Below, in pieces: positions 1,217 to 11,705 of a stretch of DNA of 64,000 nt (its first letter is position 1; every line of letters begins with the position of its first letter). This DNA is from Cyanobium sp. FGCU52. Its GTDB lineage: Bacteria; Cyanobacteriota; Cyanobacteriia; PCC-6307; Cyanobiaceae. A program made the translations under genes and the position numbers. A model generated the notes under the pieces. That model worked only from the letters and a program-made list of their open reading frames with translations. It did no database searches and was not told the DNA's origin. The stretch spans positions 1-64,000 of the forward strand of contig JANWUS010000038.1 in NCBI GenBank assembly GCA_024958715.1, given 5' to 3'.

Positions 1217-1429
1217 TTAAATCCCTACACAAATCTGCAGCAAGCCAATGAAATCAGCTTCAAGCTCGGGCTTGCCATCCTTAAGCAGCATCCCAATCAC
1301 CTCATGCAGGTTAGCCTGCAATTCCTCAGAGGTTGCTCCCTGGCTATGGGCCCCGGGGAATCCAGGCACATAGCCAACCAGCAGTCCCGTGGCGGGACAG
1401 CGCTCAATCACAGAGTAAAACGTTCGCAC
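1217..1429 (-). CDS. HicB-like antitoxin, orphan
   Basis: The 70-residue protein reads [19 protein letters not shown], then [20 protein letters not shown], the degenerate RNase H-like fold of short HicB antitoxins. It is complete for the short form, which lacks a separate DNA-binding tail. HicA, a small double-stranded RNA-binding toxin with a catalytic histidine, would be expected within about 100 bases, but neither flank on the minus strand encodes one. It sits antiparallel between the CopG-type antitoxin and hsdR. Either it has lost its toxin or it neutralises one encoded elsewhere. Confidence 0.7.
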
Positions 1430-1506
1430 AGGCTTGTCTCTGGACTTTTTGGCCCCATTCTGGTGCAGATCTGGGCCACACGTTCGTTTCGGCGCCGACC
1501 GCCCCC

Positions 1507-4623
<3,117 letters not shown>

Positions 4624-5061: not shown

Positions 5062-5463
5062 TCAGGGCACGGCCTGCTCCAACGGGCTCGCCACCTCGGG
5101 GAAGGCCCGCAGCAGTTGGCGATCGGACGTGATCAGGCGGGTCTGGAGCGCCAGGGCGGCCGCCACGAACTCACAGTCGTAGGCGCTGCAGTCGCTCGCC
5201 TCCACCAGCTGGAACACGTCGGCGGAATCCACGGGCACCTCTCGCGCCTCCAGCAGCGATTCCGCCTGGCCCTGGAGCCTGAGCACCTGCTGGCGATCCA
5301 GCCGCCCGCGTCTCAGGTACCCGCTGAGGACGTTGCGAAACTCGCTTCGCCAGAGCAGCGGCGCGGCCCATTCAGGGTCATGCAGCAGCAGCGCCTCCGC
5401 CCTTTCGGTCTGGGGGCCCTCCAGCAGCAGGTAGGCCACCACGTTGGTGTCCACCACGATCAT
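5062..5463 (-). CDS. VapC-family PIN-domain ribonuclease toxin
   Basis: The 133-residue protein begins MIVVDTNVVAYLLLEG, giving the first catalytic aspartate of a PIN domain. It continues with the conserved glutamate in LLWRSEFRNVL and ends with the acidic cluster CSAYDCEFVAAAL and LITSDRQLL. Such proteins are magnesium-dependent ribonucleases, often cutting tRNA or rRNA, held inactive by a cognate antitoxin. The start overlaps the stop of the antitoxin gene by four bases, the normal arrangement for a coupled pair. All visible acidic residues are kept, so it is probably active. Confidence 0.88.
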   Translation of the reverse strand: MIVVDTNVVAYLLLEGPQTERAEALLLHDPEWAAPLLWRSEFRNVLSGYLRRGRLDRQQVLRLQGQAESLLEAREVPVDSADVFQLVEASDCSAYDCEFVAAALALQTRLITSDRQLLRAFPEVASPLEQAVP

Positions 5464-5708
5464 GGGCGGCCCTGGTGCTTGAAGGCATCGATCTCCTCCG
5501 GGGTGAACGCCGCCTCAGTCGGCATGCTGTGGCGCAGCGCCCGGATCTGCTCCAGCCGCTCAGCGGCCGTAATGGGCTGCGGTGGAAGCGCCACCTCCAG
5601 GCAGACGATCGCTTCGTTGTTGAGGCTGCGCCGGTGCCGCTGGGCCGATTGCTTCAGGCGGCCATAGAGGTCGTCCGGGAGATTCTTGAGGGTGAGGCTT
5701 CTGGCCAT
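5460..5708 (-). CDS. FitA-like ribbon-helix-helix antitoxin
   Basis: The 82-residue protein starts MARSLTLKNLPDDLYGRLK, the classical FitA/Arc strand that inserts into the DNA major groove, followed by RHRRSLNNEAIVCLE, the helix pair. The C-terminal third (ITAAERLEQIRALR and PTEAAFTPEEIDAFK) would wrap the toxin. The start was moved inward from a longer frame to MARS at 5708 because the family begins there. It is the first gene of a two-gene minus-strand operon with the VapC toxin and probably autoregulates it. Confidence 0.85.
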   Translation of the reverse strand: MARSLTLKNLPDDLYGRLKQSAQRHRRSLNNEAIVCLEVALPPQPITAAERLEQIRALRHSMPTEAAFTPEEIDAFKHQGRP

Positions 5709-5869
5709 CGCCGCGGCCGGGACAGTGGCAACCATTCTGCAACCGAAACGGTGGCACGTCCGGGGGCAGCAGGGAGCCCGCCACCACGAAGCTGGCGCTG
5801 CTGCAGAACCACGTCGGCGGGCCTCACCGGCGCAGAGGCGTTACAACGCGCCTGCCCTGCGTCCCCTCG

Positions 5870-6685
5870 ATGGCCCCTGCACGTCCCCGGCGGGCTTCGG
5901 TGCTGCTGCTGGTGCTTCTGCTGCTCCCTGGCGCCGCTGCGGCGGCGGGGATCGATCCGCCAGGGGACTCCGGGGAGCCGCCGATCCCCGATTCGGCCAC
6001 CGGGGCGGGCTCGGAAGCGTCGCCCTGGCCTGAGGTGCTGCCGGCGGCCGTGCCGCCAACCGCCCCGGTCACCCCCACCCATGCGCCGGCGGCCACCAGG
6101 CCCGAGCGGCCGGCGCTGGTGCCCCGGGAGGTGCCGGTGGGCGACCTCGCCCTCCACCCCCAGGGACCTGGCCCGGTCGAGCCTGCGGCGGGACCGCCAA
6201 CGGCACTGCACTACCCCCTCGCCATGGCGGCCATGGAGCAGGACCCCTGGGGCTGGCGGTTCTCGGAGGCCCGCGGGGCCTGGCGCATGCACACCGGGCT
6301 GGATCTGATCGTTCCCGGGGGCACGGCCGTGCTGGCGGTGCGGGCCGGCCGGGTGATGCGGGTGGATGCGATCAGTGGCTACGGCCTCACGGTGCTGATC
6401 GATCACGGCGGCGGCTGGTCGAGCCTCTACGCCCATCTGCAGAACGCCTCCGTGGTCGAGGGCGACACCGTGGGGTCCGCTCAGCCCATCGGAGAGGTGG
6501 GCCAGAGCGGCAACGCAAGCACCCCCCACCTGCATCTGGAACTGCGCCAGCGGCAGCCCCGGGGCCTGGTGGCGGTGGACCCGACGCCCCTGCTGCCGGC
6601 GCCGCCGGGGGGGCGGCACCATCGCAGCGGGCTCACGGCCCTGAGGTGTTCACCCAGCGCTTCCTGCCCGGCGGCCTTCCGCTAG
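5870..6685 (+). CDS. Secreted M23-family (LytM-type) metallopeptidase
   Basis: The 271-residue protein has an N-terminal signal peptide (arginine-rich start, then a leucine run at 11-19 and an alanine-rich cleavage region). A proline- and alanine-rich linker to about 115 precedes the peptidase domain. The zinc ligands are visible as H141 and D145 in HTGLDL and H222 in PHLHLEL (H220 being the other catalytic histidine). Such enzymes cut peptidoglycan cross-bridges or activate amidases in the periplasm. The last 36 bases overlap the end of the convergent mnmH gene, and the tail beyond about residue 245 looks unconserved. Confidence 0.85.
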   Translation: MAPARPRRASVLLLVLLLLPGAAAAAGIDPPGDSGEPPIPDSATGAGSEASPWPEVLPAAVPPTAPVTPTHAPAATRPERPALVPREVPVGDLALHPQGPGPVEPAAGPPTALHYPLAMAAMEQDPWGWRFSEARGAWRMHTGLDLIVPGGTAVLAVRAGRVMRVDAISGYGLTVLIDHGGGWSSLYAHLQNASVVEGDTVGSAQPIGEVGQSGNASTPHLHLELRQRQPRGLVAVDPTPLLPAPPGGRHHRSGLTALRCSPSASCPAAFR

Positions 6686-7693
6686 CCCCTGCTCCAGCAG
6701 CAGCCTGGCGGCCTCCGCAGCGGAGAGATTCCCCAGATCCACCGAGTTCACCGCATGGCTGCTGAGGTCGTGGTCGTAGCAGCGGTCGTAGTAATCGAGC
6801 ATCTGGCGGCAGGCGGCGGCCGCATCGCCCTGCGCGATCGCCTCCAGGGCGGCCGCGGTGCGCTGGGGGCCCAGGCGGCGGGAGATCCGGCGGGTCGCCT
6901 CGGCCACCAGCTCCGGCTCCTGCACGCCGTACACCGCCACCAGCCGAGCCACCCGCTCCTCCAGGGGCCGCAGCACCTCCAGCACCGGAGCCTCCTTCAT
7001 CTGGCGCCACAGCCCGGCCGGGATGCGGCAGCGGCCCACCTGGGAGCTTTCGGCCTCCAGCCAGATCTCCCCGGCACCCTCCAAACCGGCGAGGGCCCGA
7101 GCGAGCAGATTTTCGTACTGCTCGCTGCTGGGCTGGGGCGGCAGCCCCAGCGCCCCGAAGCTGCTGCCCCGGTGGTTCGCCAGGCCCTCCAGATCCACCA
7201 CCGGCACCCCGCGGGCCGCCAGGGCCAGCAGCAGGTCGGTCTTGCCGGTGCCGGTGCGCCCCCCCAGCAGCCGCAGCGGCCAGGGGCGCTCGAACAGCTC
7301 CAGCACCCAGCGCCGGTAGGCCTTGTAGCCGCCCGCCAGCAGGTGCACCGGCAGCTCCAGCGCCTCCGCCAGCCGCGCCACACTCTCGCTGCGCATGCCG
7401 CCGCGCCAGCAGTGGAGCCGCAGCGGCTCCCCGGGCGCGGAGGCCGCCAGATCGCTCAGGGCGCGGGCCAGGGTCTCCAGCCGCGGGCCCACCAGCGCCA
7501 GCCCCCGCAGCACCGCAGCCGAGCGGCCCTGCTGCTTGTAGAGGGTGCCCACCTCCGCCCGGCCCGCGTCATCGAACAGGGGCAGGTTGTGCGCTCCTGG
7601 GATGTGGCCCTGCAGGAATTCGGCCGGGCTGCGCACATCCACGATCGGCCCGGAGCCCACCAGGAACTCGCTAATGCGCTGCCGGGAGGCCAT
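6650..7693 (-). CDS. mnmH: tRNA 2-selenouridine synthase MnmH (SelU)
   Basis: The 347-residue protein combines an N-terminal rhodanese domain (IVDVRSPAEFLQGHIPGA) with catalytic Cys95 in HCWRGGMRSES and a P-loop domain with GRTGTGKT at 145-152. MnmH geranylates and then selenates the sulfur at wobble uridine 34 of certain tRNAs, using selenophosphate from SelD. The length and motif order are standard. The start at 7693 (MASRQRI) was chosen over one seven codons earlier. It diverges from an ABC transporter operon across only 60 bases, which suggests shared control and a role for the transporter in selenium supply. Confidence 0.93.
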   Translation of the reverse strand: MASRQRISEFLVGSGPIVDVRSPAEFLQGHIPGAHNLPLFDDAGRAEVGTLYKQQGRSAAVLRGLALVGPRLETLARALSDLAASAPGEPLRLHCWRGGMRSESVARLAEALELPVHLLAGGYKAYRRWVLELFERPWPLRLLGGRTGTGKTDLLLALAARGVPVVDLEGLANHRGSSFGALGLPPQPSSEQYENLLARALAGLEGAGEIWLEAESSQVGRCRIPAGLWRQMKEAPVLEVLRPLEERVARLVAVYGVQEPELVAEATRRISRRLGPQRTAAALEAIAQGDAAAACRQMLDYYDRCYDHDLSSHAVNSVDLGNLSAAEAARLLLEQGLAEGRRAGSAG

Positions 7694-7753
7694 GGGCAGG
7701 AAGCAAAGGCACATACTGAAACCTCACCCGGTTCTGCCCACTTCGATCACCCC

Positions 7754-8698
7754 ATGCCGTTCCGTCTCCGCAGCGCCGCCCTGGTCACCGGCCTGGCGCT
7801 TGCCGTCGCCCCCGCACTGGCCCCGGCAGGGGCTCCCCCCGGTGCACTGGTGGCGCCGGCGGCGGCCCAGAGCACCAGCCAGGCGGTGCTGCGCATCGGC
7901 GCCATCCCCGATCAGAAACCGGAGAAGCTCAACCGCCTCTACCCCCTGGTGGCGGGTGAGCTGGGCCGCCAGCTGGGGGTGAAGGTGAAGTACGTGCCGG
8001 TGGTGGATTACGCCGCGGCGGTGAGCGCCTTCCGCACCGGCGATCTCGATCTGGTGTGGTTCGGCGGGCTCACCGGCGTGCAGGCGCGCCTGCAGAAGCC
8101 CGGGGCCAGGGTGCTGGCCCAGCGCGACATCGACGTGTCGTTCCACAGCATCTTCATCGGCAACGTCCGCAGCGGCCTGCGCCCCTTCACCCAGCAGAAG
8201 GGCCTCACAGCCCTCAAGGGCCGGCGCTTCACCTTCGGTTCGGAGAGTTCCACCTCCGGCCGGCTGATGCCCCAGTACTTCCTGCAGCAGGCGGGCGTGA
8301 AGCCGAGCGACTTCGCCGGCGGCGCCCCGGGCTTCAGCGGCAGCCACGACGCCACCATCGCCCTGGTGCAGAGCGGCGCCTACGACGCCGGCGTGGTGAA
8401 CGAGCAGGTGTGGCGCGCCAGCCTGCACGACGGCAAGGCGAACCGCTCGAAGGTGCAGGCCCTCTGGCGCAGCCCCGGCTATCCCGATTACCACTGGATC
8501 GCCCAGCCCGATCTCGACCGCCGCTTCGGCGCGGGCTTCACCGGCAATCTGCAGAAGGCGATCCTGAGCTGGCGACCCAGCGACCCCGAGCAGAAGCAGA
8601 TCCTCTCCCTGTTCGGCGCCCAGCAGTTCACCAAGGCCTCGCCCGCCGCCTACGGGCGCATCGAGCAGGTGGGCCGCTCGATCGGCAAGATCCGCTGA
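7754..8698 (+). CDS. PhnD/PtxB-type ABC transporter substrate-binding protein, possibly for selenium oxyanions
   Basis: The 314-residue periplasmic protein has a signal peptide (hydrophobic run around 8-25, alanine-rich cleavage site near 38). The mature part carries the family blocks IGAIPDQKPEKLNRLYPL, DLDLVWFGGLTGVQARL, FGSESSTSGRLMPQYFL and GSHDATIALVQSGAYDAG, which line the oxyanion pocket in phosphite and phosphonate binders. I recall a subgroup with these blocks annotated as putative selenate-binding. Placement next to mnmH favours selenium over phosphonate, and no C-P lyase or phosphite dehydrogenase is nearby. The substrate remains an inference. Confidence 0.8.
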   Translation: MPFRLRSAALVTGLALAVAPALAPAGAPPGALVAPAAAQSTSQAVLRIGAIPDQKPEKLNRLYPLVAGELGRQLGVKVKYVPVVDYAAAVSAFRTGDLDLVWFGGLTGVQARLQKPGARVLAQRDIDVSFHSIFIGNVRSGLRPFTQQKGLTALKGRRFTFGSESSTSGRLMPQYFLQQAGVKPSDFAGGAPGFSGSHDATIALVQSGAYDAGVVNEQVWRASLHDGKANRSKVQALWRSPGYPDYHWIAQPDLDRRFGAGFTGNLQKAILSWRPSDPEQKQILSLFGAQQFTKASPAAYGRIEQVGRSIGKIR

Positions 8699-8708
8699 CG
8701 GGCCGCCG

Positions 8709-9455
8709 GTGAACGCCCCGTTGCTGGAACTGCGGGGGATCCGGGTGCCGGGGCGCCAGGCTCCCCGCCTGGACCAGGTGGATCTCTGCCTGCACCCCGG
8801 GGAACGGGTGGCGCTGCTCGGTGCGAGCGGCGCCGGCAAGAGCACGTTGCTGGCGGTGGCCAACGGGCTGCTGAAGCCCGCCGCGGGCACGGTGCTGTGG
8901 GAAGGGGTCCCCCCGGCCCTGGGGCGGCGGGCCCGCCGCCGGCAGCAGGCCCGCATCGGCACCCTCTGGCAGGACCTGCGCCTGATCGAGGAGCTCACGG
9001 TGCAGCAGAACCTGAACGCGGCGCGGCTGGCGCACTGGGGCTGGCCGCGCACCCTGCTCAACCTGCTGGTGCCCCTGGAGAGCGAGGCCTGCGCGCAGGT
9101 GCTGCGCCGCCTGGATCTGGATCCCAGCCTGCTCGGCGCCCCGGTGGCGGCCCTCTCCGGCGGTCAGCGCCAGCGGGTGGCCATCGCCCGGATGCTGCGG
9201 CAGGAACCGGTGCTGCTGCTTGCCGATGAGCCGCTGGCGAGCCTCGATCCCCGCCTGGCCGCCGACCTGCTCCAGCTGCTGCTGGCCCTGGCCGAGCCCC
9301 CGAAGGCGCTGCTGCTGAGCCTGCACCGTCCCGATCTGCTCGCGGGCTTCGACCGGGTCATCGGCCTGCGCCAGGGGCGCGTGCTGTTCGAGCGGGCGGT
9401 GGCCGACGTGGACGGCGATCTGCTGGCCGAGCTGTACGGCGGATCCGGGGCATGA
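8709..9455 (+). CDS. ABC transporter ATPase, PhnC type
   Basis: The 248-residue ATPase shows Walker A GASGAGKST at 38-46, the signature LSGGQRQRVAIARM, Walker B LLLADEPLASLDP and the H-loop LSLHRPDLL. It starts at a GTG eleven bases after the binding-protein gene, and its stop overlaps the permease start (ATGA), so the three genes form one operon. It would power the import of the substrate bound by the upstream protein. The closest family is PhnC, the ATPase of phosphonate, phosphite and related oxyanion importers. Confidence 0.9.
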   Translation: MNAPLLELRGIRVPGRQAPRLDQVDLCLHPGERVALLGASGAGKSTLLAVANGLLKPAAGTVLWEGVPPALGRRARRRQQARIGTLWQDLRLIEELTVQQNLNAARLAHWGWPRTLLNLLVPLESEACAQVLRRLDLDPSLLGAPVAALSGGQRQRVAIARMLRQEPVLLLADEPLASLDPRLAADLLQLLLALAEPPKALLLSLHRPDLLAGFDRVIGLRQGRVLFERAVADVDGDLLAELYGGSGA

Positions 9456-11038
9456 GGCCCGCCGCGCCGCTGTTGATGCTGCTGCCGGCCCTTGTGCTGG
9501 TACCGCTGTTGCTGCTGCTCCCCTCCCAGTGGCATGGGGGAGGGGGCGAACTGATCGGCCGCTTCCTGCTGGCGGCGGTGCAGCCGTCGCTGGATCCGCT
9601 GGTGCTGCGCTCACTCCTGGGCGGCGTGGGCGTGACGCTGGGGATGGCCGTGCTGGGCTGGTCCGCCAGCCTGGTGATCGGCGTGCTGCTCGGGGCCGCC
9701 AGCTCCCGCACGGTGTGGCGCACCCTCGGCGGCCACCCCTGGCCCGCCGAGCTGCTGCGGCGCCTGCTGGCGATTCCCCGCTCGATCCACGAACTGATCT
9801 GGGGCCTGATCCTGCTGCAGCTGCTGGGGCTCCAGCCGGTGGTGGCGGTGCTGGCCATCGCCCTACCGTTCGGCGCCCTGGTGGCCCGGGTGATCGCCGA
9901 TCTGCTCGACACCCTGCCCACCCACGCCCTCGAGGCCCTGCGCGGCGGCGGCGCGCCGGCGCCGGCGGCCCTGCTCACGGCCCTCGGTCCGCCCCTCCTG
10001 CCTGGGCTGCTCAGCTATGGCGGCTACCGGCTGGAGTGCGCCCTGCGCAGCGCCACCCTGCTGGGGGTGTTCGGGCTGGGGGGCCTGGGCACCGAGCTGC
10101 GGCTCACGATGCAGTCGCTGGAGTTCCGCGAGCTGTGGAGCGGGCTGTGGCTGCTGCTGGCGGTGATGCTGACCCTGGAGGCGGGAGTGGCCCGCTTGCG
10201 GCGGCGCTGGCTGATGCCCCCCCGCCTGGGGCTGGCCGCCGGTGGGGTGGGCCGCCGGGGCCGGGAGATGGTGCTGGCGCTGCTCGTCCTGGTTCCGCTG
10301 GGCCTGGTGGTGGCCCGGGCGCTCGGGGTGGAAGCCTCGGCCCTGCTGCAGCGCCCGCCTCTGCCGGCCCTGCCCCCGCCGGACTGGGCCGCCGTGGCGG
10401 CGCTGCCCTGGCCGGCCCTGGTGGGGAGCACGGTGCTGCTCACCCTGGTGGCGGCCTGCCTGGCGGTGGGGCTGGCTCCGCTGCAATGGCTGCTGGTGGC
10501 CCCCTGGCCCGCCATGAAGGCGCTGATGCGGCTGGGCTGGGCGCTGCAGCGGCTGTGGCCGCCGCCGCTCACGGCCCTGCTGCTGCTGTTCCTGCTGCAG
10601 CCGGGGCTGCTCACCGCCGCCCTGGCCCTGGGACTGCACAACCTGGGCATCCTGGGGCGCCTGCTGCTCGAGAGCGCTGTGGATCGTGGAGCGGCGCGGG
10701 AGCAGGCCCTGCTCGGCGCCGGCAGCGGAGCGCGCCAGGCCCTGCTCTACGGACGGCTGGCGCCGGTGGCCAACGCCTATCTCGCCTACGGGGCCTACCG
10801 GGCCGACGTGATGCTGAGGGAGACGGTGGTGGTGGGCCTGGTGGGGGCGACCGGGCTGGGGAGCCAGCTGATGGAGAGCCTGAGCAGCTTCGCCTGGGAC
10901 CAGATCCTGGCCCTGGTGGCGGTCTATGCCCTGCTCACGCTGCTGGGGGAGGAGCTGAGCGACCGCGCCCGCCACCGCCTGCTGGAGGGGAACGGGTCAC
11001 CCGAGGCCGCGCCTTCGCAACTGGGCATCAGCACTTGA
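9452..11038 (+). CDS. ABC transporter permease, two PhnE-type domains fused
   Basis: At 528 residues this is about twice a normal PhnE permease. Two halves each carry a run of hydrophobic segments and a cytoplasmic coupling loop: the first around EALRGGGAPAPAALLTALGP with GVFGLGGLGTEL, the second around EQALLGAGSGARQALLYGRL with GLVGATGLGSQL. So one polypeptide supplies both halves of the membrane channel, which is a homodimer in ordinary PhnE systems. It overlaps the ATPase gene by four bases and ends just before a Fur-like promoter. Fused permeases of this kind occur in other oxyanion importers. Confidence 0.88.
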   Translation: MRPAAPLLMLLPALVLVPLLLLLPSQWHGGGGELIGRFLLAAVQPSLDPLVLRSLLGGVGVTLGMAVLGWSASLVIGVLLGAASSRTVWRTLGGHPWPAELLRRLLAIPRSIHELIWGLILLQLLGLQPVVAVLAIALPFGALVARVIADLLDTLPTHALEALRGGGAPAPAALLTALGPPLLPGLLSYGGYRLECALRSATLLGVFGLGGLGTELRLTMQSLEFRELWSGLWLLLAVMLTLEAGVARLRRRWLMPPRLGLAAGGVGRRGREMVLALLVLVPLGLVVARALGVEASALLQRPPLPALPPPDWAAVAALPWPALVGSTVLLTLVAACLAVGLAPLQWLLVAPWPAMKALMRLGWALQRLWPPPLTALLLLFLLQPGLLTAALALGLHNLGILGRLLLESAVDRGAAREQALLGAGSGARQALLYGRLAPVANAYLAYGAYRADVMLRETVVVGLVGATGLGSQLMESLSSFAWDQILALVAVYALLTLLGEELSDRARHRLLEGNGSPEAAPSQLGIST

Positions 11039-11089: not shown

Positions 11090-11111
11090 CAAGGTCCGTT
11101 CGCCTGCGCCG

Positions 11112-11705
11112 ATGAGCTTCCGCTTCCTCCCCGATGACGCCGTGGCGGCCATCCGCATGCCGGCCGGCCAGACGGTGCTGATCGATCCCTCCCTGCGCCC
11201 CGGCGCCAGCTGTCTCGAGGTGCTCGAGGGCGTGGCCCGCGTCTACTGCCCCTGCGAGGACACCGAAGGCATGACGATCGCCTTCCTCCAGCCCGGCGAC
11301 CAGCTGCGCACCGACCGCCTCTGCAGCGAGGGCGTCTGCGTCGAGGCGCTCACCCCGCTCTGCTTCCGCAGCGATGCCCAGCCTCTGGAGGGCACCGGCT
11401 TCGATGCCGTCAACGAGTGGACCCTCCAGCTGCTGCGCATCCGCCATCTCGGCAACGCCGAGCAGCGGCTGCACGCCCTGTTCGGCCTGCTGGTGCGCCG
11501 CCTGGGCCGCCGCTGCGGCGACTGGTGCGATCTGCCGTTCCGCCTCACCCATGAGCGCATCGGCGAACTGATCGGCACCACCCGGGTCACCACCACCCGG
11601 CTGATCTCGCGGATCCGGGCTGCCGAACTGCTGCAGGTTCCGAGCGGCGAACCCGGCCTGCGGGTGGCGCCGGAACTGGTGGAATCGGCCCCGCTGGCGG
11701 CATGA
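11112..11705 (+). CDS. Crp/Fnr-family transcriptional regulator
   Basis: The 197-residue protein has a cyclic-nucleotide-binding-like N-terminal barrel (residues about 15-95) and a C-terminal winged helix with LTHERIGELIGTTRVTTTRLISRI as the recognition region (long motif, here at about 150-173). ATG 11112 (MSFRFLPDD) was chosen over an upstream frame start because the promoter lies between them. Several cysteines occur in the sensory part (YCPCEDTEG, LCSEGVCVE, RRCGDWC). A Fur-like box in the promoter suggests an iron-responsive regulator like IdiB, but that identity is inferred. It overlaps the next gene by four bases. Confidence 0.85.
   Translation: MSFRFLPDDAVAAIRMPAGQTVLIDPSLRPGASCLEVLEGVARVYCPCEDTEGMTIAFLQPGDQLRTDRLCSEGVCVEALTPLCFRSDAQPLEGTGFDAVNEWTLQLLRIRHLGNAEQRLHALFGLLVRRLGRRCGDWCDLPFRLTHERIGELIGTTRVTTTRLISRIRAAELLQVPSGEPGLRVAPELVESAPLAA

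Follow-up and report, generated by a model that had tools for sequence, protein, structure and literature searches.

Question and locus

Which substrate is carried by the phosphonate-type ATP-binding cassette (ABC) importer that is encoded back to back with a tRNA selenouridine synthase gene in Cyanobium sp. FGCU52? The locus lies on contig JANWUS010000038.1 of assembly GCA_024958715.1, a picocyanobacterial genome of 3.48 Mb in 87 contigs, of which the stretch analysed here (positions 1 to 64,000 of the contig) is henceforth called the window. In a preliminary description of the window, mnmH had been placed 60 bases from a three-gene oxyanion importer, and all four genes were recovered as follows:

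6650–7693, minus strand: mnmH, tRNA 2-selenouridine(34) synthase (open reading frame (ORF) extensible to 7714)
7694–7753, no strand: divergent intergenic region of 60 bp, candidate shared promoter
7754–8698, plus strand: periplasmic substrate-binding protein, TIGR04553/PhnD1 orthologue, predicted selenium-oxyanion (probably selenite) binder
8709–9455, plus strand: ABC transporter ATPase, PhnC-like (PF00005, 109 bits)
9452–11038, plus strand: ABC permease of 528 aa with two fused PhnE-like halves (TIGR01097 in two stretches)

Very probably, the operon at 7754–11038 encodes an ABC importer dedicated to an inorganic oxyanion of selenium, with selenite as the likeliest candidate. MnmH passed two equivalog models (NF008750, 389.9 bits, cut-off 241; TIGR03167, 351.5 bits, cut-off 219.75) and holds the rhodanese Cys in HCWRGGMRS as well as the P-loop GGRTGTGKT. 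Its start was set to the second Met (7693), which is favoured by relatives and yields the 60-bp gap; the longer ORF would give 39 bp. The binding protein scored 304.4 bits against NCBIfam TIGR04553 (“putative selenate,” cut-off 250) and failed the PhnD equivalog model (126.7 bits, cut-off 261.1), so the subgroup of putative selenate binders named in the preliminary description is confirmed and corresponds to TIGR04553. For the genes directly downstream, the best NCBIfam model of the ATPase was PhnC TIGR02315 at 161.5 bits (below the cut-off of 266.1), and the permease reached 212.7 bits with PhnE TIGR01097, slightly below the cut-off of 216.7.

Co-occurrence of importer, mnmH, and SelD across genomes

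Two partly overlapping samples were used, i.e., 292 genomes of the phylum and 262 genomes of Cyanobacteriia. In the phylum sample, TIGR04553 was present above its cut-off in 49 genomes, with a clean gap between the lowest member (297 bits) and the next-best protein (172 bits). All 49 carry mnmH and a SelD domain above cut-off (sample totals: mnmH in 56 genomes, SelD domain in 66), and the importer was found in none of the 236 genomes without mnmH. Across the 262 Cyanobacteriia, the importer was detected in 106 genomes and mnmH above cut-off in 143, with both in 105, the importer only in 1, mnmH only in 38, and neither in 118 (Fisher p = 2.7e-39); outside the window’s family, the corresponding counts are 76, 1, 37, and 117. 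The co-occurrence expected in the preliminary description therefore holds for 105 of 106 importer genomes, and an importer without mnmH, which if frequent was to count against the proposal, was seen once, in a genome (G460) whose mnmH is present as two frame-shifted pieces directly after selD.

Relatedness was controlled by shuffling mnmH status within families (20,000 shuffles), which gave 12.9 ± 2.0 expected importer-without-mnmH violations (minimum 5) versus 1 observed. Since only 26 of the 88 genomes with just other PhnD-like proteins have mnmH, the association belongs to the TIGR04553 subfamily. The importer tracks the selenouridine trait, yet the trait can exist without the importer (the above 38 genomes), and this one-sided association fits an optional transporter.

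Joint absence is seen within the window’s genus as well, where 34 of 42 genomes have the importer, 35 have mnmH, and none has the importer without mnmH; a nearly complete genome of this genus (G175) is devoid of importer, mnmH, and SelD domain. In three genomes (G494, G507, and G511; loci L169, L167, and L168), the oxidoreductase-SelD fusion that represents selD in the window’s genome is reduced to its oxidoreductase half (ORFs of 386–411 aa, 371–376 bits to profile positions 1–344). No SelD domain was found in the DNA after this half, and neither mnmH nor the importer was found; the three cases possibly represent one shared event, and two of these genomes are only 83–84% complete. On its own, the oxidoreductase half may serve a purpose that does not involve selenium. 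In another family, G183, which is not among the importer-carrying genomes, has mnmH with six stops (999918–1000739) and selD with three stops (1389335–1390249) on its contig C1, and the selenouridine trait appears to be in the course of being lost.

Gene neighbourhood

In 31 of the 34 importer genomes of the window’s genus, importer and mnmH share a contig and are no more than about 2.5 kb apart (counted from coordinates). As the link is additionally found in different arrangements and in a second phylum, the neighbourhood is not due to chance. The best 80 matches of the contig scan for relatives were all picocyanobacterial. Of the loci scanned, picocyanobacterial and other, about 20 had mnmH within the fetched flank of the importer. 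It was usually located upstream of the binding-protein gene, in divergent orientation, and at the permease end instead in L075, L076, L097, and L106. In most loci with a sufficiently long flank, selD adjoins mnmH, and in G270 importer, mnmH, and selD stand side by side. Genus g145, which is filamentous, has selD, mnmH, and the importer clustered together with an insert of 2.8–4.3 kb (three genomes for mnmH and the importer, two for selD inside the fetched stretch), and G446, sister to the carriers of this cluster, lacks importer and mnmH.

Proteobacterial loci were taken from plasmid records. In Sphaerotilus sulfidivorans, the genes for mnmH, ATPase, permease, binding protein, and selD are consecutive. 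In Paracoccus marcusii, P. liaowanqingii, and P. aestuarii, the importer is divergent from formate dehydrogenase-fdhE-selA, hence the TIGR04553 family goes with selenium use and not with mnmH alone.

Two further observations concern other loci. A contig filed as Bifidobacterium breve (CALPNT020000008.1, L043) carries a picocyanobacterial selD-mnmH-importer locus, its bin being mislabelled. In family f14 (L137, L138, and L146), neighbour clustering gave a binding-protein gene without a clear adjoining ATPase or permease; these subunits may be encoded elsewhere in the genome.

Identity with PhnD1 and comparison with phosphorus importers

The closest solved structures of the binding protein are picocyanobacterial PhnD1 (PDB 7S6G, 392 bits; 5LQ5, 318 bits), with just 86 bits for the phosphite-specific PtxB in the same comparison. 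When scored against TIGR04553, the two PhnD1 sequences are above the cut-off (338.6 and 303.1 bits, respectively) and the PtxB stretch is not. A maximum-likelihood tree placed the TIGR04553 proteins of Cyanobacteria and Proteobacteria in a single group, separate from the PtxB-type proteins (99/92 support), except that the long-branched PtxB-type row L125 adjoins the TIGR04553 group. Every pocket residue is common to the window protein and PhnD1 (7S6G, 5LQ5, and 5LQ8), and, judged by these comparisons, the TIGR04553 family includes the crystallised PhnD1. The binding protein thus belongs to the putative-selenate subgroup, as supposed in the preliminary description, but to a family for which phosphorus ligands have already been measured, under the name PhnD1.

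In the published work, PhnD1 was described as a phosphite/phosphate binder that does not bind hypophosphite; neither of the two strains tested grew on phosphite or methylphosphonate, the known enzymes being absent from both, and the operon showed no consistent phosphate regulation (PMC10284923). The phosphite affinity in non-users was called paradoxical, and a constitutive phosphate importer was suggested (Shah et al. 2023, PMC10284923). The main text of this paper nowhere contains the letters “selen,” and literature searches returned no earlier link between PhnD1 and selenium and no paper naming TIGR04553. A selenium substrate would resolve the published paradox.

Transferred to the window, the suggestion of Shah et al. 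would make the operon a constitutive medium-affinity phosphate importer and its mnmH neighbourhood incidental. Phosphate is indeed bound in crystal 7S6G, with dissociation constants of 7–182 µM, and expression is not consistently tied to phosphate concentration (PMC10284923). We consider this explanation very improbable, as phosphate is needed by all cyanobacteria, yet the importer is absent in 156 of the 262 Cyanobacteriia and almost confined to genomes with mnmH, is missing jointly with the SelD domain and mnmH, and has copies in another phylum that are linked to selenium genes.

Import of phosphite or methylphosphonate has hardly any probability left, even with a pocket close to that of PtxB and with orthologues that bind phosphite at sub-micromolar to micromolar concentrations (PMC10284923), given that the tested strains cannot grow on either compound. 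In the window’s genome, no PhnJ was found and no convincing phosphite dehydrogenase, the best PtxD match being 32% inside a 634-aa frame, which agrees with the absence of phosphonate and phosphite enzymes reported in the preliminary description. Phosphite users have a separate importer, because PtxB-type operons with ptxD coexist with the TIGR04553 importer. In four importer-carrying picocyanobacteria (G291, G205, G209, and G163), PtxB-type paralogues adjoin a phosphite dehydrogenase 44–51% identical to Burkholderia PtxD, and in G284 and G105 the PtxB-type gene likewise stands beside one with 58–61% identity; these values and the 32% of the window’s genome stem from different queries.

PtxB and PhnD2 share their fold and the majority of their ligand residues (Tyr, Ser-Thr-Ser, His, and capping Tyr) with the window protein, but carry Tyr and Gln where it has Phe130 and Asp245, are 24–34% identical to it (compared set), and are adjoined by a phosphite dehydrogenase in 6 of 10 loci (tblastn) as well as in L125 by annotation. 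In the window protein, these ligand-site Tyr and Gln residues are replaced, and a good PtxD partner is missing. Escherichia coli PhnD belongs to the same superfamily (Pfam Phosphonate-bd) and differs by a larger pocket that accepts 2-aminoethylphosphonate; as given above, the window protein fails the PhnD model and its genome is without PhnJ.

Selenite versus selenate as ligand

The selenite anion is pyramidal, with three oxygens, and carries a proton in part at pH values near 8, and selenate is always fully deprotonated. In PhnD1, Y44, S124-T125-S126, H156, and D203 bind the anion, Y204 caps it, and ligands need at least three oxygens in a trigonal arrangement (PMC10284923). All equivalents are present in the window protein (Y86, S166-T167-S168, H198, D245, and Y246). 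Of the two positions that differ from PtxB-type proteins, F130 (Phe versus Tyr) is found in 33 of 33 TIGR04553 members and D245 (Asp versus Gln) in 32 of 33, each compared with 1 of 10 PtxB-type proteins. This Asp suggests a singly protonated ligand (Bisson et al. 2017, PMC5700983). Based on this Asp acceptor and the preference of PhnD1 for a three-oxygen pyramidal anion, we infer that selenite is considerably more plausible as ligand than the annotated selenate.

The TIGR04553 family has the same ABC gene set and selenium-gene context as the window locus, its function being a database hypothesis, and its name says selenate whereas the pocket of the window protein argues for selenite. A selenium importer with selenate as physiological ligand, in line with the NCBIfam name, is a lesser possibility that we regard as rather unlikely. 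Four-oxygen tetrahedral phosphate does fit the PhnD1 pocket (at the 7–182 µM given above), but the conserved Asp is a hydrogen-bond acceptor that suits a protonated anion and not fully deprotonated selenate, and PhnD1 prefers three-oxygen phosphite at least tenfold over phosphate. The uptake of a selenium oxyanion put forward in the preliminary description is hence supported, with the choice of selenate revised to selenite.

SelD partner and proposed route of selenium

A selD gene, for which the preliminary description had recommended a search, was found on contig C40 as an oxidoreductase-SelD fusion (L130:4889–7033), with 193 bits to the SelD model TIGR00476 (cut-off 125). The fusion retains the Cys-x-x-Lys (GCAAK, as in Aquifex 2YYE) and Asp motifs, and because these motifs are kept and the SelD half is absent where mnmH is absent, the fused SelD may be active.

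In the proposed route, the periplasmic TIGR04553/PhnD1 protein would close on the anion, with the Tyr/Ser-Thr-Ser/His set gripping three oxygens, Asp245 serving as proton acceptor, and Tyr246 capping the fourth face. The ATPase and fused permease would carry the anion into the cytoplasm, where selenite would be converted to selenide, candidate reductants being glutathione and the oxidoreductase part of the NDH-SelD fusion. Selenophosphate would then be formed by the SelD domain and used by MnmH to turn 2-thiouridine-34 of tRNA into 2-selenouridine; mnmH and the importer, divergent from the 60-bp region, are probably co-expressed. The idea that the transporter feeds selenophosphate synthesis for tRNA modification thus gains support from co-occurrence and from the presence of selD, with a reservation regarding the divergence of the fused SelD.

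Several points weigh against a selenium importer feeding this route. The fused SelD is a divergent one that passes TIGR04369 “fusion_not_SelD” as well (879.7 bits, cut-off 700), although “not SelD” may be the wrong name for the picocyanobacterial fusion, which accompanies mnmH and retains the catalytic Cys and Lys. PhnD1 binds phosphite best (0.05–4 µM) and phosphate at 7–182 µM (Shah et al. 2023, PMC10284923). On the capping Tyr, the lone pair of selenite may be a poorer fit than the P-H bond of phosphite that packs there. With regard to neighbourhood, the conserved importer neighbour in marine strains, from which PhnD1 was described, is tesA and not mnmH or another selenium gene; in most of the non-picocyanobacterial Cyanobacteria examined, the importer is not beside mnmH, and neighbour clustering of 15 such genomes yielded no conserved selenium neighbour amid much noise from antisense ORFs. 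Six further Rhodobacterales plasmid copies have no selenium gene nearby (plasmid flanks only), and none was found in the flank of the Aeromonas TIGR04553 member L121 (379 bits).

Relation to known selenium transporters

According to the literature, prokaryotes have no known selenium transporter that is specific and of high affinity (2022 review PMC9312934; 2024 study PMC11097638; 2026 review PMC13188914). YedE, a predicted selenium-related transporter, was likewise predicted from genome context, and differs in being a ten-transmembrane protein similar to sulfur transporters, possibly an exporter, and not an ABC importer (PMC5322559). For the importers beyond the window, we lean slightly towards the view that picocyanobacterial PhnD1CE and TIGR04553 importers generally are the missing high-affinity bacterial selenite importer, in which case phosphite binding would mimic that of selenite and the published phosphate assignment would be wrong. 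Already known was a named family with a database hypothesis as its function; new are the quantitative test of this hypothesis and the equation of the family with the crystallised PhnD1, whose proposed role is contradicted. The missing selenium transporter and the phosphite paradox of PhnD1 would thereby converge on a single protein for which expression, purification, and crystallisation have already been achieved. If this is true, a core gene of Prochlorococcus and Synechococcus moves from phosphorus to selenium, which implies that selection in the ocean acts on how tRNA modification is supplied with selenium.

Further features of the locus

Upstream of the binding-protein gene, an element CATAGTGG is conserved in eight relatives (L053, L064–L067, L081, L088, and L102), with CATACTGA as its counterpart in the 60-bp region of the window; it is possibly a promoter or operator. 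A Crp-family gene downstream of the permease (11109–11705, plus strand) was considered as regulator of the unit and rejected, as it adjoins the importer only in the nearest relative, L038.

On contig C40, selD is followed by hsdM and hsdS (G000:C40, L130 7132–11118), and hsdR lies left of mnmH in the window (1333–4623). Relatives such as G270 have selD and mnmH side by side, so the two are probably separated here by a type I restriction island that spans the contig gap; no joining sequence overlap was found between contig C40 and the start of the window. In G473, about 12 kb of other DNA occupies the selD-mnmH position. An M23 peptidase gene (5870–6685, plus strand) overlaps the 3′ end of mnmH with its own 3′ end by 36 bp, and a toxin-antitoxin-like pair of a PIN-domain protein and a FitA-like ribbon-helix-helix protein is encoded at 5062–5735 (minus strand).

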